Source: Bacteroidetes bacterium HLUCCA01 (GTDB lineage Bacteria > Bacteroidota > Rhodothermia > Balneolales > HLUCCA01). From it: DNA of 64,000 bases. The notes under the pieces are model-generated. The model worked only from the letters and a program-made list of their open reading frames with translations. It was not told the origin of the DNA and searched no databases. Position 1 is the first letter of the stretch. Each line of letters begins with the position of its first letter. Where the stretch lies: contig LIHN01000021.1 in assembly GCA_001314545.1 (NCBI GenBank), forward strand, positions 62,001 through 126,000, written 5' to 3'. Below are positions 1 to 48,092 of this stretch, piece by piece. Both the position numbers and the translations under genes were made by a program.

Positions 1-1
1 A

Positions 2-841: not shown

Positions 842-950
842 ATTAAGCACCCTCACCTTTAACAGATTCTTTGTACTTTCAGCAGTCAGGGAAAACCGGG
901 GCTGAGGCATTTATGCCCGGCATCACATCTACAGCATATCCAGGTAAACC

Positions 951-1982: not shown

Positions 1983-2100
1983 GTTTGGCGCTGCAGCCTG
2001 TTTTTATACCCACGCCAACGACTTTGTTTTATTGTAGATTTGGTGCTGCAACCTGTTTTTGTACCCTCACCAACCATATTGTTTTACTGTAGATTTCTGA
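1956..2100. repeat. 55-bp tandem direct repeat copying the proB 3' end (about 2.6 units)
   Basis: Units start at 1956, 2011 and 2066 (period 55) and each begins CACGCCAACGA or the variant CTCACCAACCA, followed by a TTGTTTTA(T/C)TGTA core. The first unit overlaps the final proB codons and stop; the later ones repeat that end as non-coding DNA. The third unit is partial and most diverged, and stops just before proA. Replication slippage is the simplest origin. No hairpin with a T-run is evident, so I do not call a terminator. Confidence 0.9.
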
Positions 2101-2104
2101 ACCT

Positions 2105-3358
2105 ATGACCCCTACCATCGTCCCCCAGCTGCAACAAGCCCGGAAAGCTGCCATCAGCGTCCGGTCGCTTTCAGACGAACGTCGTCGCGACCTCATCGAA
2201 CTGCTCTCGCGCGCCCTGGAGGCTTCGGAAGAGGCCATTCTACAGGCCAATCAGCAGGACCTGGACGCCATGCCGGACACCGATCCCAAAAAAGACCGCC
2301 TCCTGCTGAATGCAGAGCGTATTGCCGGACTGGGAGAAAGTCTCCGGCAAATTGCCGGTCTGCCGGATCCCGCGGGCACTGTGCTGCTGGAACGGGAGCT
2401 CCAGGCGGGACTCAACCTGCAGAAAATTACGGTTCCGCTGGGCGTGGTGGGCGTGATTTACGAGAGTCGACCCAATGTAACCGCTGATGTGGCAGCCTTA
2501 TGCCTGCGGTCGGGCAATGGTTGTGTACTGAAAGGCGGCAAGGAAGCGGTGCACTCCAACAGAGCCATCGTCAAGGTCATTCACGAGGTATTGGCGGAAT
2601 TCGGGGTACCGGCCGAGACCGTGACGCTGCTGCCTACCGATCGCGCCCATGTGCAGGAGCTGCTCACTGCAACCCGCTATGTAGACATCCTCATCCCCCG
2701 AGGATCGGAGTCGCTGATCCAGTATGTGCGGCGCAACGCCCTGGTACCTACCATTGAAACCGGTGCGGGTGTGTGCCATACCTACGTGACCGCCAGCGCG
2801 GATGTGCAGAAAGCGGCGGCGATTGTGGTCAACGCGAAGGTGCAGCGACCATCGGTGTGTAACGCCCTGGATACCCTGGTGGTGGACCGTGCAACCATGG
2901 ATGAGCTCCTGCCCCTGCTTACCGCTCCGATGGCGGAACACGGGGTGGAGATCTTTGCCGATGCCCTCTCCTACCCGATTTTGCATGTGCTGGGCTACCC
3001 GCATCTGCAGGAGGCATCACAGGAGGATTTTGGTCGGGAGTTTCTGGATTTCAAGTGCTCGGTGAAGGTGGTTTCGGGGATGGATGAGGCCCTGGAGCAC
3101 ATCGAGACGTATTCATCGAGGCACAGCGAGGCCATCGTCACGGAGGACGAGGCCGAAGCGGAGCGATTTTTGTCGGAGGTGGATGCGGCTGCGGTGTATG
3201 TGAATGCCTCCACGCGGTTTACCGATGGCGGGGAGTTTGGCCTGGGAGCGGAAATCGGTATTTCAACGCAGAAACTGCACGCACGCGGACCGTTCGCCCT
3301 GGAAAAGCTGGTTACCGAGAAGTGGGTGGTCCGGGGGAACGGGCATATCCGTCGGTGA
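2105..3358 (+). CDS. proA: Glutamate-5-semialdehyde dehydrogenase (ProA)
   Basis: Reduces gamma-glutamyl phosphate to glutamate-5-semialdehyde with NADPH, the second step of proline synthesis. At 417 residues it has the usual ProA length. Recognisable blocks are PLGVVGVIYESRPNVT, GNGCVLKGGKEA, LIPRGSESLI and the catalytic Cys in QRPSVCNALDTL (Cys252), with the aldehyde-dehydrogenase-like ending STRFTDGGEFGLGAEIGIST. It follows proB on the same strand. The ATG at 2105 is preceded by the repeat and lacks a strong Shine-Dalgarno (SD) sequence. Confidence 0.96.
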   Translation: MTPTIVPQLQQARKAAISVRSLSDERRRDLIELLSRALEASEEAILQANQQDLDAMPDTDPKKDRLLLNAERIAGLGESLRQIAGLPDPAGTVLLERELQAGLNLQKITVPLGVVGVIYESRPNVTADVAALCLRSGNGCVLKGGKEAVHSNRAIVKVIHEVLAEFGVPAETVTLLPTDRAHVQELLTATRYVDILIPRGSESLIQYVRRNALVPTIETGAGVCHTYVTASADVQKAAAIVVNAKVQRPSVCNALDTLVVDRATMDELLPLLTAPMAEHGVEIFADALSYPILHVLGYPHLQEASQEDFGREFLDFKCSVKVVSGMDEALEHIETYSSRHSEAIVTEDEAEAERFLSEVDAAAVYVNASTRFTDGGEFGLGAEIGISTQKLHARGPFALEKLVTEKWVVRGNGHIRR

Positions 3359-3390
3359 AGTGGCATATTAACTGGCGCACGGCATCGGCT

Positions 3391-3454
3391 TGGTAACCGT
3401 GTGAGTTGGTAACCCTGTGGGCTGGTGGCTGTGTGGGCTGGTAGCCGTGTGCGC
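3391..3454. repeat. 16-bp imperfect tandem repeat, four units
   Basis: Four head-to-tail units of the form TGGTARCCSTGTGRGY start at 3391, 3407, 3423 and 3439 in the gap between proA and the convergent metallophosphoesterase. The rest of the gap (3359-3579) shows no gene. The period is not a multiple of three and there is no sign of translation. Confidence 0.75.
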
Positions 3455-3579
3455 GGTACGGACGTTGCAAATACACGGCAGGGCGCACCGGCGATGTGCT
3501 ATTCGTGCGATGATAGTCTGACATTGGCCCGGGGTGATACCAGGATCCGGGGCGTCTGCAATATACAGCCGCTACGACC

Positions 3580-5463
3580 TCACGGCGATATCCAGTAGCC
3601 GGTTACCGGTCCGTGCAGGCTTTCATCGTTCGGGATGAGCTCCAGGTACCAGGAACGCGTACGCGGCAGAACGGGAAGTGTGGTTTCCGGGTTGGGACCG
3701 GCCATGCGGGTATGCCATATGCTCGTGCTTCCGGGACCTTCGGTAATGCGCACCGTGTAGAACACGCCGTCGCCATCGGGATCGATTGCGCGCTCCCATC
3801 GTACGGTATGCAGGCTGTCGGAGGTCTGGACGTTGACGGAGCGAAGCGGAATGGAACCGGGCGGCAGGTTGGGGTCGGGCATGAGGCGGGCCGTTGCGCG
3901 AATAGGGGTGGTTGCACGTAGCTGTTCCCCTGCTCCGGCAAACATCGTCAGGTAATACACCCCTCCGCGCAATCCGTCCTCGTCAAATTGTCCGACCGGA
4001 AATACCTGGCTGAAGGTAGGTCGGGGCGGGTAAATGAGGGGCTGTACATGGGGCACAATGGTTTCTCCGGCGTGCAGGGTGTCGCTCTGCCCGGACTCGG
4101 CGATGGTAGTGTGAATACGCCATTGCAGCGGGGAACCGGCCAGGGATGCGGCGAATTCCGCAGGAATGTGCACATCCAGGTGCAGGGAATCGTCCTGAAG
4201 GCGCATTTCGACTCCGCTGTTGGGCAACATGCCGGCCGCCGAACCGGATGAGGTCGTCATCCAGCCAGACGACCATCGCTGCGCCGGTGGATTATCCCTG
4301 CGAATGGTGAACCCGGTCAGTCCGTGCAGGTGTCGGGGCAGGGCGTTACTGGTGATCAGGTCGCCGGTTTCCGCATCCCGGGTGGTGATGGTCACCCCGG
4401 CATCGGCCTGCGCGGGGATTTCCAGCAGGCTCCATGTTTTCTGCGGGGGTGCTCCGAAACGAAGCCAGGGTCGGGGTCCGCCGCCCAGCGCGCCGGTCTG
4501 CAGCAGGTCTACACCGCGTTTGTGACCGGGATAATAGGCATGGTGGTGGCCACTCACGTACATATCCACGTTGTTGGAGGTCATCACCTCCAGGAGTTCA
4601 TCGGGCTGGCGAAGCATCTCTCCGTAGCGATTGCGCCCTACTGCCGCGGCGTACAGGGGCAGGTGCCCGAGCATGATGCGGTAGCGGGCCTCACGGGCTT
4701 CGGGGCTGCGAAGCTGCTCCCGGACCCAGTTGAGAGTGGGCTCACTGATTTCGGCGGAGCTAGCATCCCAGCTGATGATGAACACATCGTTTACCCGATA
4801 GCTGAAATAAAAGGGGAAATCGCCGGTGTCCAGTATTTCGAGCAGGGTGTTTTCGGGTTTCCAGTATGCCCGGGCAGCCTCGCGTTCCCGGTTGAAGGCA
4901 TCGAAGGGGGAACCGTCATGGTTACCGATGGTGAACCCGAAAGGGATTCCGGCCCGACGCAGGGGTTCGGCTACACGGCGATCAAACTCGGCCCACATGG
5001 CCGGGAACCGGTCGTCAGGCAGGCGACGGTCCTGCCCGGCAATCATGTCGCCGGAGAGGATGACGGCATCGGGCTGCATACGTACGATGCGGGCTACGGT
5101 GGAGTCTACATGCCAGTCGTAGTCGAGGCTGCCGTAGGGACCGTTAAGGTCGCTGATGATGGCGATGCGGGTGGGCACCGATTGGGATGATGCGCTTGTT
5201 TGGGGAGGGGTGGTGAGCGTGACAGGATTTGCGTTGCTTCCGTCCCCGATCGAAAGCGACGTGCTGGTAGCACGCTGAACAGGGTTTACGTCCCCGGCGG
5301 GCTGCGACGTCGCCCAAAAAGGCATAACCAGGACAAGAAATGCGGTAAACAGGCACGCCTTCAGCAATTGTACCGGATTTTGGGTAATGCCCGGATCGAC
5401 AGCAGTGCAACCGGTCTTAAGCGATGTTTGCAGTAACACAATCAAAATTTGAGCTGGGTTCAT
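3580..5463 (-). CDS. Secreted calcineurin-like metallophosphoesterase with C-terminal beta-sandwich
   Basis: A 627-residue protein from the ATG at 5463; a longer frame to 5532 would overlap the divergent methyltransferase gene and is rejected. A hydrophobic segment (about residues 33-52, ending FWATSQPAG) looks like a signal peptide, though with a long n-region. The metallophosphoesterase core is complete: ISDLNG (D105), SGDM (D139), GNHD (181-183), GHLPLY and SGHHHAYYPGH for the di-metal site. About 200 C-terminal residues look like beta-sandwich/fibronectin-III sequence ending in YWISP, with no T9SS tail recognised. The substrate (phosphomonoester, diester or nucleotide) cannot be told. Confidence 0.85.
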   Translation of the reverse strand: MNPAQILIVLLQTSLKTGCTAVDPGITQNPVQLLKACLFTAFLVLVMPFWATSQPAGDVNPVQRATSTSLSIGDGSNANPVTLTTPPQTSASSQSVPTRIAIISDLNGPYGSLDYDWHVDSTVARIVRMQPDAVILSGDMIAGQDRRLPDDRFPAMWAEFDRRVAEPLRRAGIPFGFTIGNHDGSPFDAFNREREAARAYWKPENTLLEILDTGDFPFYFSYRVNDVFIISWDASSAEISEPTLNWVREQLRSPEAREARYRIMLGHLPLYAAAVGRNRYGEMLRQPDELLEVMTSNNVDMYVSGHHHAYYPGHKRGVDLLQTGALGGGPRPWLRFGAPPQKTWSLLEIPAQADAGVTITTRDAETGDLITSNALPRHLHGLTGFTIRRDNPPAQRWSSGWMTTSSGSAAGMLPNSGVEMRLQDDSLHLDVHIPAEFAASLAGSPLQWRIHTTIAESGQSDTLHAGETIVPHVQPLIYPPRPTFSQVFPVGQFDEDGLRGGVYYLTMFAGAGEQLRATTPIRATARLMPDPNLPPGSIPLRSVNVQTSDSLHTVRWERAIDPDGDGVFYTVRITEGPGSTSIWHTRMAGPNPETTLPVLPRTRSWYLELIPNDESLHGPVTGYWISP

Positions 5464-25576: not shown

Positions 25577-25809
25577 AATTCTCCTTTAAGTGATTTTAGA
25601 GGAGATGCAGCATACATGGCGATGTTGAGCAGACGGTAGCGCTGGTTGCGGAGCAGGGCTGTGCGGGGCGGTACACTGAAACATATCGGCGATAGCCGGC
25701 ATCCTTCCGGGCACCTAACGATGTTGATTTTCGCCGCAGCCGGATGGGTTTCAGGTGGCCCTGACAGGTAACTGCAGCGAGCAAACAAGCACATACGTTC
25801 GAAATTGAA

Positions 25810-25895
25810 CGGGTCTGTACCGGTTTCCCTTCGCCGGCATTATCCGGATCAGGTAATATGGGGTATGTTCTCAGCCAGTTTTGCCAGCACCCCCA
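25810..25895 (-). promoter_or_regulatory. TPP riboswitch (THI element)
   Basis: On the minus strand the conserved parts occur in order: GGGGTGC (25894-25888), CTGAGA (25874-25869), ACCC, then ACCTGATCCGGATAATGCC (25854-25836) and GCGAAGGGA (25834-25826). These are the pyrimidine- and pyrophosphate-sensing helices of the thiamine pyrophosphate aptamer. It precedes the TonB receptor by about 230 bp, and the intervening leader has room for an expression platform, though I could not assign a clear terminator or sequestrator. High TPP is expected to shut off the receptor. Confidence 0.93.
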
Positions 25896-26252
25896 ACCTT
25901 GTTTGTTGTCAAAGATTGGACATTTTAAATATACAGCTTTTCCGGCCGGAAGTACAGGAATCATTCCCGGCGCTTTCCCTGCCAGTCATTTCTTATGTAT
26001 TTTACAGTAGAAGTGCGGGTTGCATGAAGGTACGTGCCGGTCGTACGACCGGCTCCGTTATCACGACGAAATGCTGCTTGCGCGCTGGTGCGGGTGATCC
26101 GCAGTTGGTGTCTGACGCAAAACCGGAGTACAACCCGGACGTCTCCCGATTCCATCTCCCGCCCGGAAGGTCATATTTTCCAGAGATTTCCATGCAAAAC
26201 AGCGGTCGCGACCCTGTCACCATCCACTTTTTTCAGAACAACCCACATCGCA
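25896..26252. other. Divergent intergenic region upstream of the riboswitch
   Basis: No convincing gene was seen. On the minus strand AATCTTTG (25917-25910) is one mismatch from the TAnnTTTG -7 box and sits just upstream of the riboswitch, so it may be the receptor promoter. The plus-strand frame before 26253 is low-quality sequence without an SD. Confidence 0.4.
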
Positions 26253-37143: not shown

Positions 37144-37672
37144 CAGTTGGGAATCAAGATGAAGTTATGGTCAAATGTACGATGGTGGTTAACTCGTACG
37201 AGCAGACATGACACCTGACTCATGAGTGTTGCCAAACTCTGGCAAGTGATCAAACTAGTGAGCATACCCAAAATCAGGTTACGTCAGGCAGCTCGTGATA
37301 AATATCTGTAAATATGAAGTACTATCCACCCACTTTTAGTGTGAGATATGTGCATGTTTCTGCAGGTATACCGATGTACATCCTATTTTCATTTAGTTCA
37401 CATGACGTTGAATCATAAAGAAATCCGATAGTGGAAAGTGATCAGGTCATTTTAAATGGTGAACGATGGAGTCGGCGGATTCCGGTCACGAGGTCAGGTA
37501 CCGGGTACTTTTTCCTACAGAAGTCGGGCGATTCAAACGTTGAATAACCAAGTCCCGGTTCATTTATAGTGCAAATTATTCACTATACACAAGGAATATG
37601 CACTTATGGAATAACGGGAACAATTAAGTTGCGAAAATAATACTTATTAACCATCTTGCTACTCAATAATGA
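37144..37672. other. AT-rich gap between the RND operon and the cassette array; possible integron left flank
   Basis: About 530 bp with no coding sequence recognised. It ends at the first cassette junction (GTTAGTG at 37673). An integrase gene and attI would be expected on this side of an intact integron. I see no integrase and no palindromic attC here, so the junction could be a relic of attI. Confidence 0.4.
37218..37245. promoter_or_regulatory. Twin palindromes ACTCATGAGT and TTGCCA-N5-TGGCAA upstream of the RND operon
   Basis: Two adjacent perfect palindromes (37218-37227 and 37229-37245) lie 75-100 bp upstream of the first permease ATG. The position suits a repressor operator. No regulator gene is adjacent. 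Confidence 0.35.
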
Positions 37673-37686
37673 GTTAGTGTGCTTTA

Positions 37687-38724
37687 TCATTTCCTTTCAT
37701 ATACTCTAATATTTCCTGCATGATCTAGTGAATTTATCAACAGAAGTTTTTCACCGACGAACCCGATATTGCGCGCATGTTCAGGTAACAAAAACTCACC
37801 AATAAATTCTCCCGTTTCCGCTTCAAACACCATCAGTTTTGAAGTATGTTTCATTTTCTCCAGCAATGCATCGAAGTTAAAAGTATATCTCATTTGCTCC
37901 AATCGTGAAATTGTCTCACCATGAAAATGCATAAATACAAAATCATTGTGATAATATATTCCACGACTTCCTTCAGGATGACTTCCAATACGAGGCATCA
38001 TATAACCCAAATTCTCAGAATCAGCAACCGGTAGATTAAATCCATTGGGTATATTCGAAATCCACTTGATACCATTTTCATCAAGCGCAATTATGAATGA
38101 AGCAAATTCATTGCTTAAGTATATGGCATTGTTAGAATTAGAAATGAACATCGCTTGTAACAAAGCAAAGTTTTTAAAATCATTTAATTCAGAATAGTCA
38201 TCCGTTGATATTTCAAATAGAATATCAGATTCGTTCACGTACTTTGAGTTAAACCGATAGCCTCGTATAAAACTTTCTCCATTATCGATTAAGATAAGTG
38301 TAGAATCATTTACTAAACCAGCTTGGTAGATTCTGTTGCTTAAAGCAGATCCACTTAGGTCGTATAAATACTCGAGATTTGAGCCATATTTTGTTAGTCT
38401 TTGATTTCCAGCGTCGAATAGTAGAATACTGTTATCTGAAAACTTTGTAACTCTTTTGTATTGCGTTGGGCTTACTTCACCTGGTCCCTGTCCAACTCTC
38501 AGGGACTTAATCGTATACCCCTCCACTATATCAATAAGCTTAATAGGTTCTTGTTTATCCGCCAAATCGTTCACTATGGCGTATGATTCATCAATCGTCC
38601 ACATATCATATGGATTATATACAACTTCTCGAATTTCGCTTACAAGCGAGTAGTTTAAATGGTACTCAGCGGTAGTCGTAACTGATACGACTACCACTAA
38701 GTATGTTAGTAGTTTAAATCGCAT
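37687..38724 (-). CDS. Six-bladed beta-propeller protein (exported)
   Basis: A 345-residue protein with a hydrophobic start (MRFKLLTYLVVVVSVTTTAEY) that could be a signal peptide or anchor; no lipobox Cys is present. The block GYTIKSLRVGQGPGEVSPTQY matches the RGxGPGEF signature of the six-bladed beta-propeller (NHL-like) family common in Bacteroidota. NSILLFDAGNQRLTKYGSN and later repeats fit propeller blades. It starts 12 bp after the stop of the Cys-rich peptide gene, so the two are co-transcribed. The pair makes up the first cassette, on the strand opposite to the array direction. Function unknown. Confidence 0.75.
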   Translation of the reverse strand: MRFKLLTYLVVVVSVTTTAEYHLNYSLVSEIREVVYNPYDMWTIDESYAIVNDLADKQEPIKLIDIVEGYTIKSLRVGQGPGEVSPTQYKRVTKFSDNSILLFDAGNQRLTKYGSNLEYLYDLSGSALSNRIYQAGLVNDSTLILIDNGESFIRGYRFNSKYVNESDILFEISTDDYSELNDFKNFALLQAMFISNSNNAIYLSNEFASFIIALDENGIKWISNIPNGFNLPVADSENLGYMMPRIGSHPEGSRGIYYHNDFVFMHFHGETISRLEQMRYTFNFDALLEKMKHTSKLMVFEAETGEFIGEFLLPEHARNIGFVGEKLLLINSLDHAGNIRVYERK

Positions 38725-38736
38725 TATGTGATTTAT

Positions 38737-38958
38737 CTAAGGTTGTATTATTGTCACGTCACCGCAGGAAGTACAATTTTGTCCACCTTTACATAGGCGT
38801 ATAGTTTCTCCGCGGCACTGGCCCAACCAGTTGATTCTCTCAGCACATGTACATGAAGCACAGTTTGCTTCAGTCGGTGTTGTGAAAACAAACCCAGTTG
38901 ACATAATCATTACAACTGATAAGCCAAGTAGTATTCGACGAAACATACTAGTATCCAT
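38737..38958 (-). CDS. Small secreted cysteine-rich peptide
   Basis: A 73-residue peptide with a purine-rich SD (AGAAGAA) before the ATG at 38958. A signal helix (about residues 7-30, ILLGLSVVMIMSTGFVFTTP) is followed by a 45-residue mature part with seven cysteines: NCASCTC, GQC, RLC, QNC and TSC. The size, the Cys-rich tail and the downstream six-bladed propeller recall the NVEALA-type peptides of Bacteroides, which are also encoded beside propeller proteins; the NVEALA motif itself is not present. Odd Cys number suggests either a metal site or a free thiol. Confidence 0.7.
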   Translation of the reverse strand: MDTSMFRRILLGLSVVMIMSTGFVFTTPTEANCASCTCAERINWLGQCRGETIRLCKGGQNCTSCGDVTIIQP

Positions 38959-39065
38959 AATTTCTTCTATTTATTATTGTATTTTATGGGGTTAAGACAT
39001 GCTGCACTATACTAATAAATTTAATAATTTGTTCAAAATAATAATTTTACTGCTATTTCGCGCAC

Positions 39066-39187
39066 ACTAACAATGGTTTCAAGCGGTCTCGCCTACTAGG
39101 TTTTGATGGGCTTGGGAGTTTGCTTAAAAGAACAAAGTCTTTAACTTAATGCAATAGGCTCGCCGCTTAAACCAAAGGCCGTTATGT
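39066..39187 (+). repeat. attC site 1
   Basis: R'' CACTAAC (39066-39072) and R' GTTATGT (39181-39187) flank an imperfect palindrome: GGTTTCAAGCGG near the left end pairs with CCGCTTAAACC near the right. R'' plus its 5' bases (GCACACTAAC) is the reverse complement of GTTAGTGTGC at 37673, the start of the first cassette. Confidence 0.85.
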
Positions 39188-39251
39188 TGCAGTCTAATTA
39201 ACTAGATTGAAACAGTTAACATTTGAAGATGAAACGCAATATATAATACAT

Positions 39252-39800
39252 ATGAACTCAAAAAAATATCTTTGCAAATTGATCTCTATTTTTATTGTTT
39301 TTTTGATGGTTCAACCATTAAAGGCTCAGGGTTTAACCGATGAACGAACTGGAACACAAACCTGGTTGAAATTGGGTATCGGCCATTCCGGGGCAGAAAA
39401 TTTCAGGGGTGTTACCGGGATTGTCAGCGCTCACTATTTTTCAGCGTATGGTGTTATTGGTCTGCGTTATATCGTCTCTGACCGAGCAGGTGTTGACCCC
39501 GGCGTACCCCAAGTAAACAGAATTACAGGAATGAATGAAGTGAGTATGAATTGGGGATATTCTTCAAACGTATCCATTCTATCGCTATCTGCCTCGGCGG
39601 GTCTCGGAAGCCTTTGGTGGCATGAACAGGTAGCAGGTGATCAGGAAAGACTGGTGGTAATATCCGTTCCGTTGGAAGCTCAAATTCTGATAAAAACGGG
39701 TCGTTTTTTGGGTATAGGAGCTATGCTATCAACAAGTTTGAACAAAAAAACTACAATTACAAGCGGAATGCTGGTACTACAGATAGGAAATTTTAAATGA
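39252..39800 (+). CDS. Small exported beta-barrel-like protein
   Basis: A 182-residue protein from the ATG at 39252, with signal peptide ending MVQPLKAQG. The mature part alternates polar and hydrophobic residues in short strands (WLKLGIGHSG, AHYFSAYGVIGLRYIVSD, VSILSLSASAGLGSLWW, LGIGAMLSTSLNKKTTI). This suggests an eight-strand outer-membrane barrel or similar porin-like fold. It is the first gene of the 4.5-kb cassette, upstream of the subtilase. Family not recognised. Confidence 0.65.
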   Translation: MNSKKYLCKLISIFIVFLMVQPLKAQGLTDERTGTQTWLKLGIGHSGAENFRGVTGIVSAHYFSAYGVIGLRYIVSDRAGVDPGVPQVNRITGMNEVSMNWGYSSNVSILSLSASAGLGSLWWHEQVAGDQERLVVISVPLEAQILIKTGRFLGIGAMLSTSLNKKTTITSGMLVLQIGNFK

Positions 39801-39831
39801 CAAAAAATTAAATGAATAAATTTTAAAAACG

Positions 39832-39858
39832 GGAGGAGGCCATGCAGAGGCCTCCTCC
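39832..39858 (+). terminator. Strong GC hairpin (GGAGGAGGCC / GGCCTCCTCC) after the barrel gene
   Basis: Perfect 10-bp arms with a 7-base loop lie 32 bp after the stop. No T-run follows, so it may act as a weak terminator, an mRNA stabiliser or a processing site between the two cassette genes. Confidence 0.5.
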
Positions 39859-39931
39859 CTCGAACGCCGTATTCCCGAAGGGAATGCTCTAACTAACGAT
39901 CAGAACCATAACCTCTTACAGGAGATACAAC

Positions 39932-39976
39932 ATGAAAACAAAGCAAAATACCGAAAAACAACGTAGATATATATAA
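39932..39976 (+). CDS. Short leader frame with strong SD, out of frame with the subtilase
   Basis: AGGAG stands 8 bases before the ATG at 39932. The frame encodes 14 residues (MKTKQNTEKQRRYI) and ends at TAA 39974-39976 inside an (AT)4A tract (39967-39975). Losing one AT pair would join it in frame to the subtilase and give MKTKQNTEKQRRYIILRANM, a good basic n-region for the following signal helix. The subtilase's own ATG at 39991 has no SD. Confidence 0.6.
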   Translation: MKTKQNTEKQRRYI

Positions 39977-39990
39977 TTCTGCGTGCCAAC

Positions 39991-42900
39991 ATGGGACTGC
40001 TTGCGACCTCTCTTGTGCTCATTTCCGGTATCGCAATGGCTCAGACCAAAGCGGATACCCCTGTGCCAGGCGTAATCAACATCAAGTTTAAGCAGGAAAC
40101 ACTGCAGGTAAACAGGCAAGATATCTATCCTGAGGAAATAGAGATATTCGAATTAAGAGCGTTACTGTCCGGGCACGGGTTCGCCCGGGGAGAAAAAATA
40201 TTCCGGCATTTCGAAGCAAGAGATACCCTGACAACTTCAAGAATAAACGGAGAGCCTGTCATCCTGCTTGATCTGTCTCGCTGGTATACCATCTGGGTTG
40301 CCGATACGGTTAACACCCTCCGTTTTGCCGAACAATTGATGGAATTGCCAGGTGTGGAAGCGGCCTCACCGGAATTCCTGATGTATCCGCAGCAAGTTTT
40401 TCCTAATGACCCCCGTTTTCAATCAAATAATCAGTGGGGGCTGTATAACTGGGCCAATCCCGGAAAAGATATTCATGCTCCACAGGCTTGGGAGATGAAT
40501 ACCGGAAGAAGTGATGTGATTATTGCCGTAATTGATGGCGGGGTCGATTACACCCACTCGGATCTGGATCCGGGCAACCGCAGCCGGATCATCCAGGGGT
40601 ATGATGTAGCCGATAACGATTCCAACCCAATGGACGACATCCCTTCACAGTATGGATTCGCCAATCATGGGACAGCTGTAGCCGGTATTATTGGTGCGAT
40701 TACAGACAATAACCAGCAAGTAGCCGGAGTCATGTGGGATGCAAAAATTATGCCTGTGAAGGTCGCTCACACCAGTTCGCCTTGGTGGGATCCGTTTGGC
40801 TGGTCCATGGGAGGTGCCCCTCACAGCAAAGTAGCTGCAGGGGTGGATTGGGCAAGACAAAATGGAGCCAATATCATTAACCTGAGCTTAGGCGGACAAG
40901 GTGTTTCGGGAAACTGGTACAGCACATTTATCAATAATCCTGTCACCCAGGCAACCTATAATGCATATCTTAGTGGTATTTTAGTAGTAGCAGCTATGGG
41001 CAATGACGGAAATCAAACCGTGAATTACCCGGCCGGGTTTCCCTGGACAATAGCTGTTGGAGCCTCCAGTCAATCAGACTTTAAAGCTTCTTTCTCTAAT
41101 TCAGGAAGCCACATTGATGTTGTAGCCCCGGGAGTCAGTTATTATTCCACCTATAGAAACAATCAGGATGGTTCGTTCAGTGGCACTTCGGCAGCGGCTC
41201 CTGTCGTTTCGGGGGTAGCAGGCCTGATCCTCTCGCAAAGCAGAGATTTGGGCTTGAACCTGACCCATGATGACATTCGAAATACTATTCGAGTGACAGC
41301 GGATAAAGTCAGTGGAATGGGTGCTCATAATTTTACTAATGACTACGGCTATGGACGCGTCAATGCTTACGAAGCTTTAAAATTGATCAGCCCACCTAAT
41401 ATCGTAGAACACGGCACTGCGTATGGAGGCAGTTCGACATTGTTTTGGAACAACCATACCCATACATTTTACCGGGGGATGGGGACTCTGGCAACAGGTG
41501 TCTACTACGGTGTCAGAACGTATAAAATTACCGGCTTTACGAGTTTTTCCAATTATTTTGATGAACCACCTGTAGTTTGGATCCGGGATCAAACTACAAA
41601 AGGTTGGAGTGGCGCAAATCCAAATATGCAAGTGCCATGGGTAAATATCACCAGTGTAACTAAGTCTGGGTTTTATTATGAAACATTTGTTTACTGGATT
41701 GGAACCAATTCTGCGGGACAATCAATCAATACCTATTATCCGGCTTCTCCGTCAAATGCAAGAATTGATTACACCGCTGTTGGTAAGCTTTCTGGTGATG
41801 TTTGGAGTGGTAATATGAATATTACTTCCACTTACACTGTAGAGGCAACTGATCTATTAACTATCACCCCTGGATCCTCCATAACGTTTACTAACAATTC
41901 AGACTTCATTGTAAATGGAGAGTTGATAGCTAATGGAGTTACTTTTGATTTTGTTACTCCATCCAATAACGGTATTAAATTCAATTCTGGTTCTTCCGGT
42001 ACTATTTCTTACTCTACCATTAAGAATGCGACGACCGGCATTTGGGCGACCGGTTCCAGCACCTCAATTAATATACATGACAATGTGATTTCCGACAACG
42101 GGACCGGCGTTCATCTGACATCCACTGGTACGAATGTCCTGATTACAGATAACGTAATTGAAGATAATACGATTGGAATGTGGTTGTACCAGTCCAATGC
42201 TTCCGTTTCTGGAAATATCATTGAGAATAATACCTATGGGATGAACGCCGACTATGTGTCTACTACGGCAGAACACGACGGGAACAAAGTCCGCTACAAT
42301 ACGGCGCGCGGTCTGTTTCTAAATTCCTCTAACCTGTGGGTTACCACCAGTGTGTTTGCGGGAAACGGCGGCAATCAGGTGCTGATCAATGACGGCTGGC
42401 CAAGCTTTGCCGAATCCCCGGGATTCGAAGGGTATAACGTAATCGCCTATGGTGCTGGTCCGATGCTCAAGGCACAAAACGGGGCATACGTATTTATGGG
42501 TTATTCCGCCGATGGCGGATACAATAGTTTCTACGAAACCGACATGCCCCATATCCGGGCGGAAAACAACTCCGGCGTGTGGGCAGACAGAAACTACTGG
42601 GAAGGTGGACCGGGCAACTCCATGGACGGTACATCCTGGGTGACCTCGAATAATACACTTAGCACCGACCCGAATCCACCTTACTACCAGAAAATGATTG
42701 CTGGCAATAGTACTTCCAATAGGTACGATGACACCGATAATCATACTCGCGTCCCTGAAGAACTTTTGACGGCAATGCGTGTGAGCATGGGCGGTGAGAT
42801 AGAACAGGGTTTATCAGTTTTAAAAAGCTACATTGAAAATGATCGTCAATCTTCGTTTGCTCCATTAGCTTTGATTGGTTACAACGCCCTCGTACACAGA

Positions 42901-43581
42901 CAAATGCAGGGCTTGGCTTCTGAGGGGCCGCGTCAAACATTGCAAGCCGAATTGACGGCGTATCTACATTCTCAGTCCACAACCGGCCAATCGGATCCCC
43001 TCTGGCCCTATGCGGTGCGTTTGCTGGCAAATAACGCCATGCTTGAATCAGATTATGAAATTGGCCGGAATCACTTGCTTTCGTTGGCCGAATTTTCATC
43101 GTACGATTCTGTTCATAATCTACTGGCACAGTATAATCTGTTTACCTACTACCTCGAAGTGGAGCAAAATTTCGAGAAGGCAACCTCATATTTAAGTCAA
43201 TTGTTAAGAAATCACCCCGATGATGAATTGACCCAAACAGCGCAAGTACTTGCTGGTATTTACCTTAATAGTGTGCCCGATCCTATTGCTGAGCAGCATG
43301 GCAAAGAGAAACAAATTTCCGACATTGTCCAGGTTGGAGCTTATCCCAATCCATTCAACCCGAATGCGGTAATCCGGTACAGCATCCCGGAAGATGGTCA
43401 GGTAAGGCTTGCCGTATTTGATGTTTTGGGGCGACAAGTGTCAGAGCTTGTCAATGGTTCGGTTCGAGCGGGTGTCCATGAAGTGGCCTTTAACGGCGCA
43501 AATCTGGCATCGGGAATTTACGTGTATAGGCTACAGGTCAGTGGTCAGATTATCACTGGCAAAATGATGCTACTGAAATAA
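39991..43581 (+). CDS. Subtilisin-family (S8) protease with beta-helix region and T9SS sorting domain
   Basis: A 1196-residue secreted protease. After a signal helix (GLLATSLVLISGIAMAQ) and a propeptide-like region come the catalytic triad: Asp182 (AVIDGGVDY), His226 (NHGTAVAG) and Ser400 (SGTSAAAP). Residues about 620-800 hold right-handed beta-helix-type repeats (NVIEDNTIGMWLYQSNASV, GNIIENNTYGM). The C-terminus is a T9SS type A domain (AYPNPFNPNAVIRY...FDVLGRQV...GIYVYRLQV). Translation may begin at 39932 through the AT tract, or at 39991 by reinitiation 14 bases after the leader stop. It fills most of a 4.5-kb integron cassette, very large for one. Substrate unknown. Confidence 0.9.
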   Translation: MGLLATSLVLISGIAMAQTKADTPVPGVINIKFKQETLQVNRQDIYPEEIEIFELRALLSGHGFARGEKIFRHFEARDTLTTSRINGEPVILLDLSRWYTIWVADTVNTLRFAEQLMELPGVEAASPEFLMYPQQVFPNDPRFQSNNQWGLYNWANPGKDIHAPQAWEMNTGRSDVIIAVIDGGVDYTHSDLDPGNRSRIIQGYDVADNDSNPMDDIPSQYGFANHGTAVAGIIGAITDNNQQVAGVMWDAKIMPVKVAHTSSPWWDPFGWSMGGAPHSKVAAGVDWARQNGANIINLSLGGQGVSGNWYSTFINNPVTQATYNAYLSGILVVAAMGNDGNQTVNYPAGFPWTIAVGASSQSDFKASFSNSGSHIDVVAPGVSYYSTYRNNQDGSFSGTSAAAPVVSGVAGLILSQSRDLGLNLTHDDIRNTIRVTADKVSGMGAHNFTNDYGYGRVNAYEALKLISPPNIVEHGTAYGGSSTLFWNNHTHTFYRGMGTLATGVYYGVRTYKITGFTSFSNYFDEPPVVWIRDQTTKGWSGANPNMQVPWVNITSVTKSGFYYETFVYWIGTNSAGQSINTYYPASPSNARIDYTAVGKLSGDVWSGNMNITSTYTVEATDLLTITPGSSITFTNNSDFIVNGELIANGVTFDFVTPSNNGIKFNSGSSGTISYSTIKNATTGIWATGSSTSINIHDNVISDNGTGVHLTSTGTNVLITDNVIEDNTIGMWLYQSNASVSGNIIENNTYGMNADYVSTTAEHDGNKVRYNTARGLFLNSSNLWVTTSVFAGNGGNQVLINDGWPSFAESPGFEGYNVIAYGAGPMLKAQNGAYVFMGYSADGGYNSFYETDMPHIRAENNSGVWADRNYWEGGPGNSMDGTSWVTSNNTLSTDPNPPYYQKMIAGNSTSNRYDDTDNHTRVPEELLTAMRVSMGGEIEQGLSVLKSYIENDRQSSFAPLALIGYNALVHRQMQGLASEGPRQTLQAELTAYLHSQSTTGQSDPLWPYAVRLLANNAMLESDYEIGRNHLLSLAEFSSYDSVHNLLAQYNLFTYYLEVEQNFEKATSYLSQLLRNHPDDELTQTAQVLAGIYLNSVPDPIAEQHGKEKQISDIVQVGAYPNPFNPNAVIRYSIPEDGQVRLAVFDVLGRQVSELVNGSVRAGVHEVAFNGANLASGIYVYRLQVSGQIITGKMMLLK

Positions 43582-43616
43582 GTCGGATAAAAATTCATAA
43601 ACAGGTCTAAACTGCA

Positions 43617-43706
43617 ACATAACAACGGTTTCGTGCGGACAGGTGCTGAGTTACAAGCCTTAGTAGAACTTTTAGCCCCTGCCGCACAAACCGAAAGGCG
43701 TTATGT
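43617..43706 (+). repeat. attC site 2
   Basis: R'' ACATAAC (43617-43623) and R' GTTATGT (43700-43706). Left arm CGGTTTCGTGCGGACAGG pairs imperfectly with right arm CCTGCCGCACAAACCG. The bases through R'' (CTGCAACATAAC) are the reverse complement of GTTATGTTGCAG at 39181, which starts this cassette. Confidence 0.9.
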
Positions 43707-43731
43707 TGCATATAGGAATCCGTCCGTAAAC

Positions 43732-44715
43732 ATGAATTCAGCAAAGATTATTTTATTTTACGTGATCATTAGTATGACTCTGCTTGGTTGCAATAGCTCT
43801 GGTATTATACCATCTGATGCAGAGGACTTGAACTCTGGCTGGCACGAGACAAGTATTGAACATGGAGATATGAGTCGTGTGTTTCGTTTTTATATTCCTG
43901 AGTCTATATCAGAAAATGCGGAAGTAGTTATTCTGCTTCATGGCGGAACACAAAGCATGGACAAGCTTTTTCGTCCCAATGCCGGAGGAACGCAGGAGTG
44001 GCAGCAAATTGCAGAAGAGGAAGGATTTTTGTTGATGGTGCCCAATGGTACCAATAACAACACCGGTTCACCGACAGGAGATAATCAGAGCTGGAATGAT
44101 TGTCGGCCCCAAACCCAGGGCAATCCGGATGCCGATGATGCCGGGTTCATCGTTTCGATGCTGGATTGGGCTGCCGGCCGGTTTGCGCATGAATCAATTA
44201 CACTTAATTTGAATCGAGTGTTTGCAACAGGTGCATCAAATGGTGGGATGATGACGTACAGGCTGGCAACAGAATATCCTGACAAATTTATTGCGGGCGG
44301 TGCATTTATCGCGAACCTGCCTGACCCTACAGAATGCGCGGAAGCAACTACACCTGTACCTATGATCATCGTTAACGGAACTGAAGATCCGTTCATGCTA
44401 TATGAGGGAGGCAGCATTATAGGTGGCCGAGGCGAGGTATTATCATCTGAATCGACCCGGGACTACTGGATTGAAGTCAACCAGGCAGATTCATCAAATC
44501 CAATAATCACCGAGTTTGAAGATCTTGACCCTGATGATGGTAGCGTTGTCATATGTGAATATTACTCATCGGCTTCAGACGGTGCGGATGTCCATTACTG
44601 CAAAGTCGATGGTGGCGGACATACTATGCCATCAATTAACCATCCAACCATTGGCAGGCAGAATCGTGATGTGGAAGGTGCTCGGTTGGTTTGGGAGTTT
44701 TTCGCTAAACAATGA
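43732..44715 (+). CDS. PHB-depolymerase-family (LpqC-like) alpha/beta-hydrolase lipoprotein
   Basis: A 327-residue lipoprotein from the ATG at 43732 (lipobox SMTLLGC). It has the esterase blocks of the poly(3-hydroxybutyrate) depolymerase/feruloyl-esterase family: oxyanion loop VVILLHGGTQS, nucleophile Ser169 in TGASNGGMM, the acid region VNGTEDPF and the catalytic His in GGGHTMP. This group covers cell-surface esterases acting on polyesters or feruloyl or acetyl esters. It is the only gene of its cassette and starts 25 bp after attC 2. Confidence 0.85.
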   Translation: MNSAKIILFYVIISMTLLGCNSSGIIPSDAEDLNSGWHETSIEHGDMSRVFRFYIPESISENAEVVILLHGGTQSMDKLFRPNAGGTQEWQQIAEEEGFLLMVPNGTNNNTGSPTGDNQSWNDCRPQTQGNPDADDAGFIVSMLDWAAGRFAHESITLNLNRVFATGASNGGMMTYRLATEYPDKFIAGGAFIANLPDPTECAEATTPVPMIIVNGTEDPFMLYEGGSIIGGRGEVLSSESTRDYWIEVNQADSSNPIITEFEDLDPDDGSVVICEYYSSASDGADVHYCKVDGGGHTMPSINHPTIGRQNRDVEGARLVWEFFAKQ

Positions 44716-44726
44716 ATACCGGTGCA

Positions 44727-44817
44727 ACATAACAATGCAAATCAAGCGGACGCGTTAGTGTTTAGTTTCTTACATTCAAGGACTTAGCCGCGCCGCTTAT
44801 TTGCCAGACCGTTATAT
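44727..44817 (+). repeat. attC site 3
   Basis: R'' ACATAAC (44727-44733) and R' GTTATAT (44811-44817). GCAAATCAAGCGGACGCG pairs imperfectly with CGCGCCGCTTATTTGC. TGCAACATAAC is the reverse complement of GTTATGTTGCA at 43700, the start of this cassette. Confidence 0.9.
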
Positions 44818-44831
44818 TTCTCTGAATCAAC

Positions 44832-45227
44832 ATGCACAAATTTCTGAGTAAATTATACAAAGTTGTTGGTGTTGAGCTCGGTGATATTTCCAGGAATTTC
44901 GAATTCTTGGAAATCAAAACACTTCATGCTCTAAATAATTCTGATCCCAGAGCGAACAAAGCTGGAGTTTATATTCACTACACAGACGAGCATCAAGTCA
45001 TTAAGGTTGGCAAGCATAACACCAATGCCAGAGTTCGTGCTTTGCAGCACATTCGAGATAATACCAAGAACGATGTGGTTCAAATGTACTCACTCGCAAG
45101 TAATCCAGAGGCGTTGATTTTTTTCATTGTACTAACAGATACGTCTAAAATTCATTGGGTCCTGGCATTAGAAAATTACTTGGAAAAACACCTTAATCCC
45201 ACGATTCGCTCCAAGAGATCCGGGTAA
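44832..45227 (+). CDS. GIY-YIG-like domain protein
   Basis: A 131-residue protein starting 14 bp after attC 3. The block AGVYIHYTDEHQVIKVGKHN followed by NARVRALQHIRDNT resembles the VYI...KVGK variant of the GIY-YIG nuclease core. WVLALENYLEKHLNP supplies the Glu of the metal site. GIY-YIG domains cut DNA in repair, restriction or homing. Small members are frequent in integron arrays. Activity is not established; the first motif lacks a literal GIY. Confidence 0.65.
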   Translation: MHKFLSKLYKVVGVELGDISRNFEFLEIKTLHALNNSDPRANKAGVYIHYTDEHQVIKVGKHNTNARVRALQHIRDNTKNDVVQMYSLASNPEALIFFIVLTDTSKIHWVLALENYLEKHLNPTIRSKRSG

Positions 45228-45275
45228 GGTGATTGCTGGGCTTGATAGATGTTCGCATTTATGCTAACTTATTAA

Positions 45276-45578
45276 ATGCGGAAAATAAACTTCTATCACA
45301 GCGAAAATGGAAAATGCCCGGTGCAATCTTTCTTAGAAAGTCTTCCAGATAAGACGTCAAAGAAGATAGCGTGGGTGTTGAGAACAGTAAGAGAAGTTAA
45401 TCCGGTTCCCGCTCAATACCTTAAAAAGCTGACCAATACTGACGATATTTGGGAAATAAGGGCTACTTTGGGTTCGAATACGTTCCGGCTATTATGTTTT
45501 TTCGACGGTAGTGAACTCATAGTCGCGACCAATGGATTTGCAAAAAAAGACCAACAAAGTACCTCAACAGGAAATTAA
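45276..45578 (+). CDS. HigB/RelE-like toxin, C-terminus shifted at an A7 tract
   Basis: A 100-residue mRNA-interferase-type toxin: YHSENGKCPVQSFLESLPDK, then WEIRATLGSNTFRLLCFF and VATNGFAKK, as in the phage Gp49-like RelE/HigB group. At 45542-45548 an A7 run shifts the reading frame to DQQSTSTGN-stop. With six A residues it would continue KKTNKVPQQEIKLAEERK and on to a TGA at 45628-45630. That gives the usual HigB ending and overlaps the antitoxin ATG at 45623. So the present form is a frameshift mutant, a slippage site or a sequence error. The antitoxin gene follows directly. Confidence 0.8.
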   Translation: MRKINFYHSENGKCPVQSFLESLPDKTSKKIAWVLRTVREVNPVPAQYLKKLTNTDDIWEIRATLGSNTFRLLCFFDGSELIVATNGFAKKDQQSTSTGN

Positions 45579-45622
45579 ACTTGCCGAAGAACGAAAACGC
45601 GATTATTTCAGGAGGAAAGATC

Positions 45623-45901
45623 ATGGGTGACGATTTAGAACGATTTATCGAAAAGAAAAAAGCGGAAAGTCCAGAGTTTGCTGAAAACTTTGAAGAAGGC
45701 TACTTGAACTTCAAGATTGGTGTCATATTACGCCAAGCACGTGAAGATTTGGGCATTACCCAACAAGAGGTGGCCAATAAGTTGAACACGACAAAATCGG
45801 TAATCTCGCGCATGGAGAACCATGCCGATGACATCCGTTTGTCTACATTACGAAAATACGCTCGAGCTTTAGGGCGAAAGGTAAAGCTAGAAATCCAGTA
45901 A
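45623..45901 (+). CDS. XRE-family antitoxin (HigA-like)
   Basis: A 92-residue antitoxin from the ATG at 45623, which has a strong SD (AGGAGG). A TTG start at 45581 is possible but weaker. The helix-turn-helix is ILRQAREDLGITQQEVANKLNTTKSVISRMEN, the Cro/C1 type. The toxin-before-antitoxin order matches HigBA. The gene ends 8 bp before attC 4. Confidence 0.88.
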   Translation: MGDDLERFIEKKKAESPEFAENFEEGYLNFKIGVILRQAREDLGITQQEVANKLNTTKSVISRMENHADDIRLSTLRKYARALGRKVKLEIQ

Positions 45902-45908
45902 AAGAGAA

Positions 45909-46017
45909 ATATAACAACGTTTTCACTTCGTGGCTTTCAGCTCGTGCTGACAGGTGCTGATTTCGATACTTTTGCAAAGTTGGCATCCCCTGCAGCACAA
46001 AACGAAGGCCGTTAAGT
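45909..46017 (+). repeat. attC site 4
   Basis: R'' ATATAAC (45909-45915) and R' GTTAAGT (46011-46017, exact GTTRRRY). AACGTTTT...GTGCTGACAGG pairs with CCTGCAGCACAAAACG, with extra bases in the left arm. AGAGAAATATAAC is the reverse complement of GTTATATTTCTCT at 44811, the start of this cassette. Confidence 0.88.
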
Positions 46018-46032
46018 AACAAAACAATACAC

Positions 46033-46590
46033 TTATAGCAGGTTTTCGAGAAGGTTAGCTGAGTTTTGAATATTGTTCTTTCTAAATGTGTCCAATAATT
46101 TGGTTGCAGGAATTGAGGGGTTATTCAGGTGCTCTACCTGATTTAAAAAAGCTTGAGTGGCTTTAACCGGTGATTCTTTGATTAGTGAAGTCAAAAACTC
46201 ATCCGGGTGTATTGATTTTAAAGCGTGTGTTATCAACTCCTTAGAGGGAAAATCTTTGATATTGAAGGTTACAATAAAATCGGCTTTAGCCTTTATCGCA
46301 GCTGCCAGCACATGATTATCACCCTGATCAGGTAAACTTAACCCTCCCATAAAATGGTCATAGTCCTTTACATTTGCATTTGGGAAGGCTTCATCCATTA
46401 ATACGCGTAGCCTGTGAAAACTATGTTCAGATAAATCTGGGCGGTTTTTAAGTACATTATGAATCCATTCATCATTGATACGATCGCTCCAACGGGGTTT
46501 GTAAAGTTTCTGCTGGGCTAAGTGAAGCAGAAAATCTCGAAGTGACGCCGAATACAACACACACGCATCCAAGACAACAGTTTTACGCAT
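46033..46590 (-). CDS. PIN-domain toxin
   Basis: A 185-residue PIN-domain ribonuclease. The first acidic residue is Asp8 in VVLDACVLYS, further ones lie in LPDQGDNHVLAAAI, and FNIKDFP fits the core strand. It starts 6 bp after the HTH antitoxin stop, so the two form an operon. A PIN protein behind an excisionase-type HTH protein is a known toxin-antitoxin arrangement related to VapBC. The pair is inverted relative to the cassette array and must use its own promoter. Confidence 0.85.
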   Translation of the reverse strand: MRKTVVLDACVLYSASLRDFLLHLAQQKLYKPRWSDRINDEWIHNVLKNRPDLSEHSFHRLRVLMDEAFPNANVKDYDHFMGGLSLPDQGDNHVLAAAIKAKADFIVTFNIKDFPSKELITHALKSIHPDEFLTSLIKESPVKATQAFLNQVEHLNNPSIPATKLLDTFRKNNIQNSANLLENLL

Positions 46591-46596
46591 GGACGG

Positions 46597-47034
46597 TTAG
46601 TACAAGTTTAGACGCTGGGACTCGTCGGTAAGCTTCTTGAGTTTTTGCAAGGCAATCTGTTGCTGCTTCTCTTCATAGTTTTTAAGCTCGGAGAACAAGA
46701 CTCGGCGATGACGGCCTACTTTTTTAAAGGGTATTTTCCCGGACTCCAATAACCGAACGACAAATGGTCGTGAAACGTCCAGATAATCGGCGGCTTGTTG
46801 GGTGGTCAGGTATTGAGTTTCACTGATGATTTCAGAGGTCTTTCCTTCTGCGAGGTTTTTTAGTATTGTTTCGATACTGTCTAACGCAGCTACTGGAAGT
46901 TGAAATGCCGTTCCATCCTGTGCAACGGCAAATTCAATAGAATTAGCGTTGTTCTTATAGAGCTTTGATAGCTTGCGGAAGCTCTTTAGAGAACGTTTAG
47001 CGAGGTCTTGATCCGTGGTCGTTGGGTTTGCCAT
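46597..47034 (-). CDS. Excisionase-type helix-turn-helix antitoxin
   Basis: A 145-residue DNA-binding protein. The MerR/Xis-like helix-turn-helix is LTTQQAADYLDVSRPFVVRLLESGKIPFKKVGRHRRV. A 75-residue N-terminal part precedes it. It probably represses its own operon and neutralises the downstream PIN toxin. Promoter elements must lie between 47035 and attC 5 (47124). Confidence 0.85.
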   Translation of the reverse strand: MANPTTTDQDLAKRSLKSFRKLSKLYKNNANSIEFAVAQDGTAFQLPVAALDSIETILKNLAEGKTSEIISETQYLTTQQAADYLDVSRPFVVRLLESGKIPFKKVGRHRRVLFSELKNYEEKQQQIALQKLKKLTDESQRLNLY

Positions 47035-47123
47035 AGGAATGTATTTGTTATGGTATGCGGTATAAAATACACAATATTCGAATTATTCGAACATTTTAAA
47101 CCATACTGAACTATGGTGTTGTT

Positions 47124-47223
47124 ACTTAACACGCGGTTCATGCGGACTCGCTTAGGGTTCCCAGCCTTAATTTTAACAAGTCGGCTCGCCGCTTAAACGC
47201 TGGGTCGTTATGGAGCGTTATAA
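47124..47223 (+). repeat. attC site 5
   Basis: R'' ACTTAAC (47124-47130, exact RYYYAAC) and R' GTTATGG (47217-47223). GCGGTTCATGCGGACTCGC pairs imperfectly with GGCTCGCCGCTTAAACGC. TTGTTACTTAAC is the reverse complement of GTTAAGTAACAA at 46011, the start of this cassette. Confidence 0.88.
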
Positions 47224-47332
47224 CCCGATCCTATTTGCTTCTCCCTTCCGCCATCATTTTCAGTAAATTCCCCCAAAACGCTGGTATATATTAACGTGGT
47301 ATTAGGGTTGATCCAAATAATTGCTTATCTTT

Positions 47333-47347
47333 TGCGTTACTAACGCA
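47333..47347. promoter_or_regulatory. Palindromic operator TGCGTTA-C-TAACGCA of higBA
   Basis: A perfect 7-bp inverted repeat with a one-base centre, 7 bp before the toxin ATG. HigA-type antitoxins bind such palindromes to repress their own operon. Autorepression is inferred. Confidence 0.7.
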
Positions 47348-47354
47348 TGAAGTT

Positions 47355-47636
47355 ATGATCATATCTTTCGGATCAAAACAGCCGGAGCATATTTGGCTTG
47401 GTAAAAGGGTAAAGAATATGCCTTTGGACATCCAAAATGTTGGTCGCAGGAAATTACGCATGCTCAACAACGCACAAACTATCAGTGATTTGACGGTTCC
47501 CCCTTCGAATAGGCTTGAAAAATTGTCGGGTAATCTGAATGGATTTTACAGTATCCGAATCAACAAAAAATGGCGCATTGTCTTCAAATGGAGTGAAGGT
47601 AACGCCAGTGAGGTAGAAATCATGGATTATCACTAA
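47355..47636 (+). CDS. higB: HigB toxin (RelE superfamily)
   Basis: A 93-residue ribosome-dependent mRNA interferase. It opens MIISFGSKQPEHIWLGKRVK and has the family blocks RRKLRMLNNAQTISDL, PPSNRLEKLSGNLNGFYSIRIN and KWRIVFKW...VEIMDYH. Length and motifs match plasmid-type HigB. The antitoxin follows after 12 bp. Confidence 0.93.
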   Translation: MIISFGSKQPEHIWLGKRVKNMPLDIQNVGRRKLRMLNNAQTISDLTVPPSNRLEKLSGNLNGFYSIRINKKWRIVFKWSEGNASEVEIMDYH

Positions 47637-47648
47637 AAGGCAGAAATT

Positions 47649-47948
47649 ATGGAAAAGTTATCGAATGTACATCCTGGAGAGGTTTTGCTCTATGAGTTTC
47701 TAGAGCCACTGGGCGTATCGGCATACAGGTTGTCGAAGGATTTGAACATCCCACAAACACGGCTCTCGCAGATCATAAAAGGTAAACGCCGTATAACCGC
47801 AGATACGGCGTTGCGGTTGAGTAAGTATTTTGGCGTATCCGCGAAGTTTTGGCTTGGATTACAAGACGATTACGACCTTGAAGAGGAAAGAGAATCGAAA
47901 AAAGACGAGCTCAGCGAGATTAAATCACTTCTTAAGGGTGCGGTATAA
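47649..47948 (+). CDS. higA: HigA antitoxin (XRE family)
   Basis: A 99-residue antitoxin. It opens VHPGEVLLYEFLEPLGVSAY, the standard HigA start, followed by the helix-turn-helix LSKDLNIPQTRLSQIIKGKRRI and TADTALRLSKYFGVSAKFW. It binds HigB and the operator at 47333-47347. The gene lies in the last cassette, 69 bp before the attC remnant. Confidence 0.94.
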   Translation: MEKLSNVHPGEVLLYEFLEPLGVSAYRLSKDLNIPQTRLSQIIKGKRRITADTALRLSKYFGVSAKFWLGLQDDYDLEEERESKKDELSEIKSLLKGAV

Positions 47949-48016
47949 TAGGTCGGGTACTTTCTGGGTTTGAAGTGAGCTAAACCCCAATGCAAATCAA
48001 GCCCTTATTGTACGCT

Positions 48017-48092
48017 CCATAACAACGCGTTTCACTTCGTGGCTTTCAGCTATTAACCAGTGTAAGCTTCCTACATTTTTCGAACGTTAACA
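48017..48092 (+). repeat. Truncated attC site 6 (right end of the array)
   Basis: R'' CCATAAC (48017-48023) is intact, and ACGCTCCATAAC is the reverse complement of GTTATGGAGCGT at 47217, the start of this cassette. The following bases CAACG...TTTCACTTCGTGGCTTTCAGCT match the left arm of attC 4. The sequence then diverges at about 48050 with no complementary right arm; GTTAACA at 48086 is only a weak R' candidate. Confidence 0.7.

Follow-up and report, generated by a model that had tools for sequence, protein, structure and literature searches.

The window, by which we mean the whole stretch of 64,000 nucleotides analysed here, carries between 37674 and about 48060 an array of six cassettes, delimited by six attC sites, of which the first five are complete and the last is truncated. 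The cassettes start (with GTT) at 37673, 39181, 43700, 44811, 46011 and 47207, and each start is matched by an exact reverse complement in the cassette's own right attC, over 10, 13, 11, 13, 12 and 12 nucleotides for cassettes 1 to 6 respectively. Among all 720 permutations of starts and sites, the pairing of each start with its own partner ranks first, with a sum of 71 against 69 for the runner-up and 36.5 on average. GC content is 36-49% in the array, versus 55-58% in the left flank and 52-58% in the right. An integron array is characterised by cassettes in tandem, each with a start that matches the attC at its own right end, and it is near certain that this region is a real one.

Cassette 1 (37674..39181) contains two orphan reading frames on the minus strand (345 and 73 amino acids) without Pfam match. 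Cassette 2 (39182..43700, plus strand) encodes a 182-aa orphan and a 1196-aa subtilase with a beta-helix and a T9SS sorting tail, and cassette 3 (43701..44811, plus) a secreted, PHA-depolymerase-like esterase. The last three cassettes carry one toxin-antitoxin module each: a Gp49/RelE-like toxin with an HTH antitoxin, beside a 131-aa orphan, in cassette 4 (44812..46011, plus); a PIN-domain toxin (RSP_2648-like) with an excisionase-type HTH antitoxin in cassette 5 (46012..47207, minus); and HigB with HigA in cassette 6 (47208..48060, plus). The genes of cassettes 1 and 5 thus run against the direction of the array. PADLOC returned weak generic matches only. Cassettes of this kind occur elsewhere and in other orders. 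On contig C353 of genome G001 there is a 98% identical counterpart of the 3' 1.7 kb of cassette 2, after which come a different cassette and a cassette-5-like start, in this order; coding segments of G001 that match core genes of the window are only about 69-73% identical. Cassette 6 should be immobile, because its attC lacks the right arm. The sequence-only reading had described the cassettes accurately: the six cassettes and their sites were all found at the positions it gave, the pairing of starts with their own sites and the AT-richness relative to the flanks were borne out, and its cargo of toxin-antitoxin pairs, secreted proteins and orphans is what annotation recovers. It had added that units never found in other orders would speak against an integron, and the order on C353 is a different one.

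The attC sites all lie on the plus strand. The five complete ones share a layout consisting of R'' ending in AAC, a spacer of 2-3 nucleotides, an L stem, a variable loop, L', a 6-nucleotide spacer, and R' starting with GTTA. A single top-strand base, C19, is unpaired and invariant in all five and interrupts the L stem, so that R and L boxes, an unpaired spacer and an extrahelical base, the features by which attC sites are recognised, are all present. A covariance model was built here from these same five sites (its E-values are rough), and its scores for them are those of training sites: 60.2 bits for attC1 (39062..39191), which also contributes to the covariation, 98.7 for attC2 (43614..43710), 85.1 for attC3 (44724..44821), 48.4 for attC4 (45906..46021, matched at 45930-46021) and 82.6 for attC5 (47121..47217). 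The left arm of attC4 contains a 19-bp insertion, and the same motif is found in attC6 (48012..48060), which consists of a left arm only, matches the start of cassette 6 over 12 nucleotides, and is not matched by the model. An Rfam search of the window did not match attC either; its sole match was a TPP riboswitch at 25809-25904 on the minus strand.

Could these be chance inverted repeats, or members of some other repeat family, rather than integron sites? What speaks for this is that single-strand folding, which the sequence-only reading had proposed for each site, is weak at three of the five: thermodynamic folding alone is convincing for attC2 (z = -4.4 to -5.0) and fair for attC3, with attC1, attC4 and attC5 only at about -0.3 to -1.7, and by itself it does not decide the matter. 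Against it stands the covariation of the stems, in which 88.7% of cells are paired across the five complete sites (29-44% when the partner is slid by 1-3 columns) and 10 of the 16 L-stem pairs show compensatory change. The other check proposed, a covariance-model search, was successful: besides the sites in the window, the model finds attC outside its training set elsewhere in the genome, on contigs C14, C17 and C1, and attC was recovered from 99 of the 147 genomes that we searched. With the IntI fragment described below as query, intI was found in 70 of these 147 genomes; 64 have both intI and attC, 35 attC only, six intI only and 42 neither, so that the two co-occur (Fisher p = 1.8e-9). Moreover, intI and attC point away from each other in all 20 tabulated genomes in which both lie close together on one contig, and cassette starts in the arrays of other genomes likewise mostly match their own right attC. 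Covariation and co-occurrence rule out chance repeats, and a non-integron origin of any sort appears to us hardly conceivable.

The sequence-only reading had called this an array without an integrase. This is correct for the window locus, where neither an intI gene nor a remnant of one was detected, but the search of the whole genome that it recommended did recover one gene of IntI type, at 7552-8214 of contig C14, adjoining spmB. The product scores 218 bits against TIGR02249 and contains the IntI-specific stretch (MHATDLRHGLGHAELPHAL), but it ends at about position 208 of the 315 of the profile: the gene is truncated at its 3' end, its reading frame running into antisense spmB sequence, and the protein stops after ELPHALH without the HxxR, H and Y motifs, so that the catalytic set is incomplete. 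In a second species of the genus (G002) the corresponding locus, with spmB, spmA, metB and topA alongside, holds a full-length intI. The G002 protein scores 407 bits (cut-off 265) and aligns along the Vibrio IntI structure 2a3v with 269 bits, versus 101 bits for the best Xer-like chain, as expected of an integron integrase. The other tyrosine recombinases of our genome were rejected as IntI candidates, being of Xer type or fragments. On C17 there are two tyrosine recombinases, one without its central part and the other an open frame with the C-terminal part only. Since the catalytic C-terminus of IntI has been lost, the window array should now be frozen, to judge from the sequence, unless an IntI arrives from outside; a second intI could hide in draft assemblies.

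At the head of the array lies an attI, which the sequence-only reading had missed, at 37604..37673 on the plus strand, with the crossover between G37673 and T37674, exactly where cassette 1 begins; the array is thus an integron platform in the sense of being headed by an attI. Its final 16 bp up to the crossover, GCTACTCAATAATGAG, recur unchanged in the attI beside the C14 intI, at which the first cassette on C14 begins; no control G|TT position out of 3343 attains this identity. G002 has the same pair of sites, one adjoining its intI and the other, without intI, beside the orthologue of the RND pump gene that neighbours the window attI. In this RND-side array, too, the crossover coincides with the start of the first cassette (12-nt match), and the two cassettes detected in it differ from those of the window; one cassette from this array is present, 94% identical, in a different array on C17 of our genome. 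Between the two species, orthology of the RND-side attI regions extends over about 110 bp (score 56, against at most 33 after shuffling). The core of these sites and the sequence upstream of it differ in what they resemble most. In the last 16 bp, agreement is 16 and 13 within a genome and 11 and 9 between orthologues; in the 54 bp upstream of the core, aligned scores are 26 and 27 within a genome and 34 and 40 between orthologues. When orphan and intI-linked cores from eight genomes are compared, the summed match of each to its own genome is reached by 20 of 40320 permutations, a signal that becomes moderate (20 of 1440) when permutation is confined within families. A closer match within a genome fits cores kept compatible with the resident integrase, or else a site duplicated inside that genome; common ancestry within a genome, rather than action in trans, could account for the shared cores.

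Attachment sites without a neighbouring integrase recur in the sample. The first cassette was located in 17 intI-less arrays of one family (f4), of which about 13 start at attI-like sites and about four do not; this count is approximate, coming from a hand-chosen sample judged by eye and by a profile made from intI-adjacent attI only. The automatic search for first cassettes misplaced some heads, as at 4235 kb in G014, where attI is in fact situated some 2.8 kb upstream of the assigned position. Several heads are plain copies. That of an intI-less array in G075 has 227 bp in common with the intI-linked attI region of its own genome, and that in G106 about 187 bp. Three intI-less heads in G014 are copies of the intI-adjacent attI, two of them with 380 bp common to each other and about 165 bp common with the intI-linked region. 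At the 4235-kb platform of G014 a stop-containing remnant of the N-terminal part of intI still adjoins attI, and G057, a genome in which intI was not detected, has the orthologue of the attI that adjoins intI in G007. These copies, together with the G014 remnant, indicate that orphan platforms can arise by copying of an intI-attI unit followed by loss of intI, and the view that they are copies whose own intI was lost is well supported. Such a remnant is absent at the window locus; the origin of the window platform, presumably the decay of a paralogous local intI, is thus argued by analogy with relatives. Elsewhere in G014 (C1:752000-758000) an intI is cut after 177 codons, and beyond the first cassette there are transposase-like genes and a Xer-like recombinase represented by its C-terminal part. 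In G145 (C1:3843809-3844441) an IntI-like match lies within a 1074-aa open frame, possibly a fusion or an unusual frame.

We consider it likely that the window array occupies an orphan platform, the second one of a sedentary chromosomal integron that is distributed over several loci and whose intI is elsewhere, at the spmAB locus on C14. In such a scenario, an intI-attI unit would have been copied to a second locus, and the paralogous intI there would have decayed, leaving an orphan attI. An IntI encoded elsewhere would then act in trans, recombining the folded attC of circular cassettes with the orphan attI so that they integrate by attI x attC recombination, until its catalytic C-terminus was lost in this genome and the array became frozen. 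One alternative is ordinary decay: a complete integron took up its cassettes by means of its own intI and later lost that gene by deletion, the array never having been fed in trans. Loss of intI is indeed a published route to integrase-less clusters (PMC8618304), and both the intI pseudogene at the G014 platform and the G057 attI, in a genome without a detected intI, speak for it. It accounts less well for the orthologous platform that lacks intI in two species and holds different detected cassettes in each, for which turnover after an ancestral loss of intI is the simpler account, or for orphan attI whose core follows the genome while the sequence upstream follows the locus. The conserved, intI-less attI with different cassettes is what leads us to think that the orphan site was probably fed in trans after intI was lost; that decay alone produced the array we consider unlikely, without dismissing it.

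A distant IntI might also have inserted the cassettes off target, into a chance chromosomal site (attG) that happens to resemble attI. Capture of this type has been published (Loot et al. 2024, as cited in the accessible text of PMC11023631 and PMC12444791), and the exact core in common with the C14 attI is short. Nevertheless, the likeness to attI goes beyond the core, in spaced blocks to about 70 bp upstream in this genus and over 187-375 bp in G106, G075 and G014, and the sites are kept at the same locus between species, whereas the E. coli attG insertions are scattered in the accessible accounts of them. We thus find off-target capture improbable, clearly more so than decay. Returning to the orphan-platform reading, the detached arrays of related species suggest that several docking sites per chromosome may depend, or have depended, on a single integrase. 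It is possible, though we would only tentatively propose it and are inclined to doubt it slightly, that a single integrase serves several dispersed, evolutionarily maintained attI on one chromosome, each with an array of its own, and that many of the "CALINs" of this order are active docking sites served in trans rather than debris.

By the usual definition (at least two attC, no intI nearby) the window array is a CALIN, and like other CALINs it consists of attC-bounded cassettes without adjacent intI; it is not a complete integron, which would have a functional intI adjoining attI. It differs in starting at an attI that is related to the intI-linked attI of its own genome and is conserved in a second species, and the definition of CALIN makes no use of attI. 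As in the sedentary chromosomal integrons of Vibrio and Xanthomonas, attI and array are chromosomal and the cassettes include toxin-antitoxin modules, and inactivation of intI is a further likeness to Xanthomonas; unlike in either, there are several attI platforms per genome here, with usually one intI. The accessible text on Xanthomonas describes CALINs at conserved secondary loci, which its authors contrast with scattered attG insertions, and reports no attI there. The attG insertions of Loot et al. 2024, as far as their accessible description goes, resemble our arrays in that chromosomal sites remote from intI receive cassettes, but attG is neither attI nor attC and is widely scattered, whereas the sites here are copies of attI. 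IntegronFinder 2.0 (PMC9024848) recorded a single complete integron in Bacteroidetes, that of Salinibacter ruber M1, and noted that attI lies close to the integrase and is poorly described outside class 1. The Salinibacter integron belongs to this group and is complete, but comes from one genome, compared with the 70 genomes with intI and 99 with attC among our 147. We found no literature on integrons in Balneolaceae, nor any on multiple attI, in a search that covered little of the subscription literature, so that an earlier description is possible. The present results place integrons in much of an order whose suspected family name yielded no integron literature in that search.

The origin of integrase-less cassette clusters is an open question, for which three hypotheses have been published: off-target insertion, loss of intI and rearrangement (PMC8618304). 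The genomes studied here allow a direct test, in that the attI at intI-less heads can be compared between species and with intI-linked attI. If orphan attI are used in trans, the integron is a distributed system and not a single locus, and annotation that ignores attI overlooks distributed integrons.

Several contigs break inside arrays, and transposase-related repeats are found at contig ends where they do. At least one further cassette array with toxin-antitoxin cassettes, cut by contig starts, is present in the 1-3900 region of C17 and the 1-2830 region of C1. The second array, that on C14, contains an istA/istB pair (IS21-like) at 1795-4174 of the extracted locus. Finally, the surroundings of the window array (26758-48600) have been rearranged: the genes at about 26.7 kb adjoin those at about 48.6-49.2 kb in G002, and nearly adjoin them in G001, and the block of about 21.8 kb that includes the RND gene, the array and a DUF1569 gene lies elsewhere in G002.
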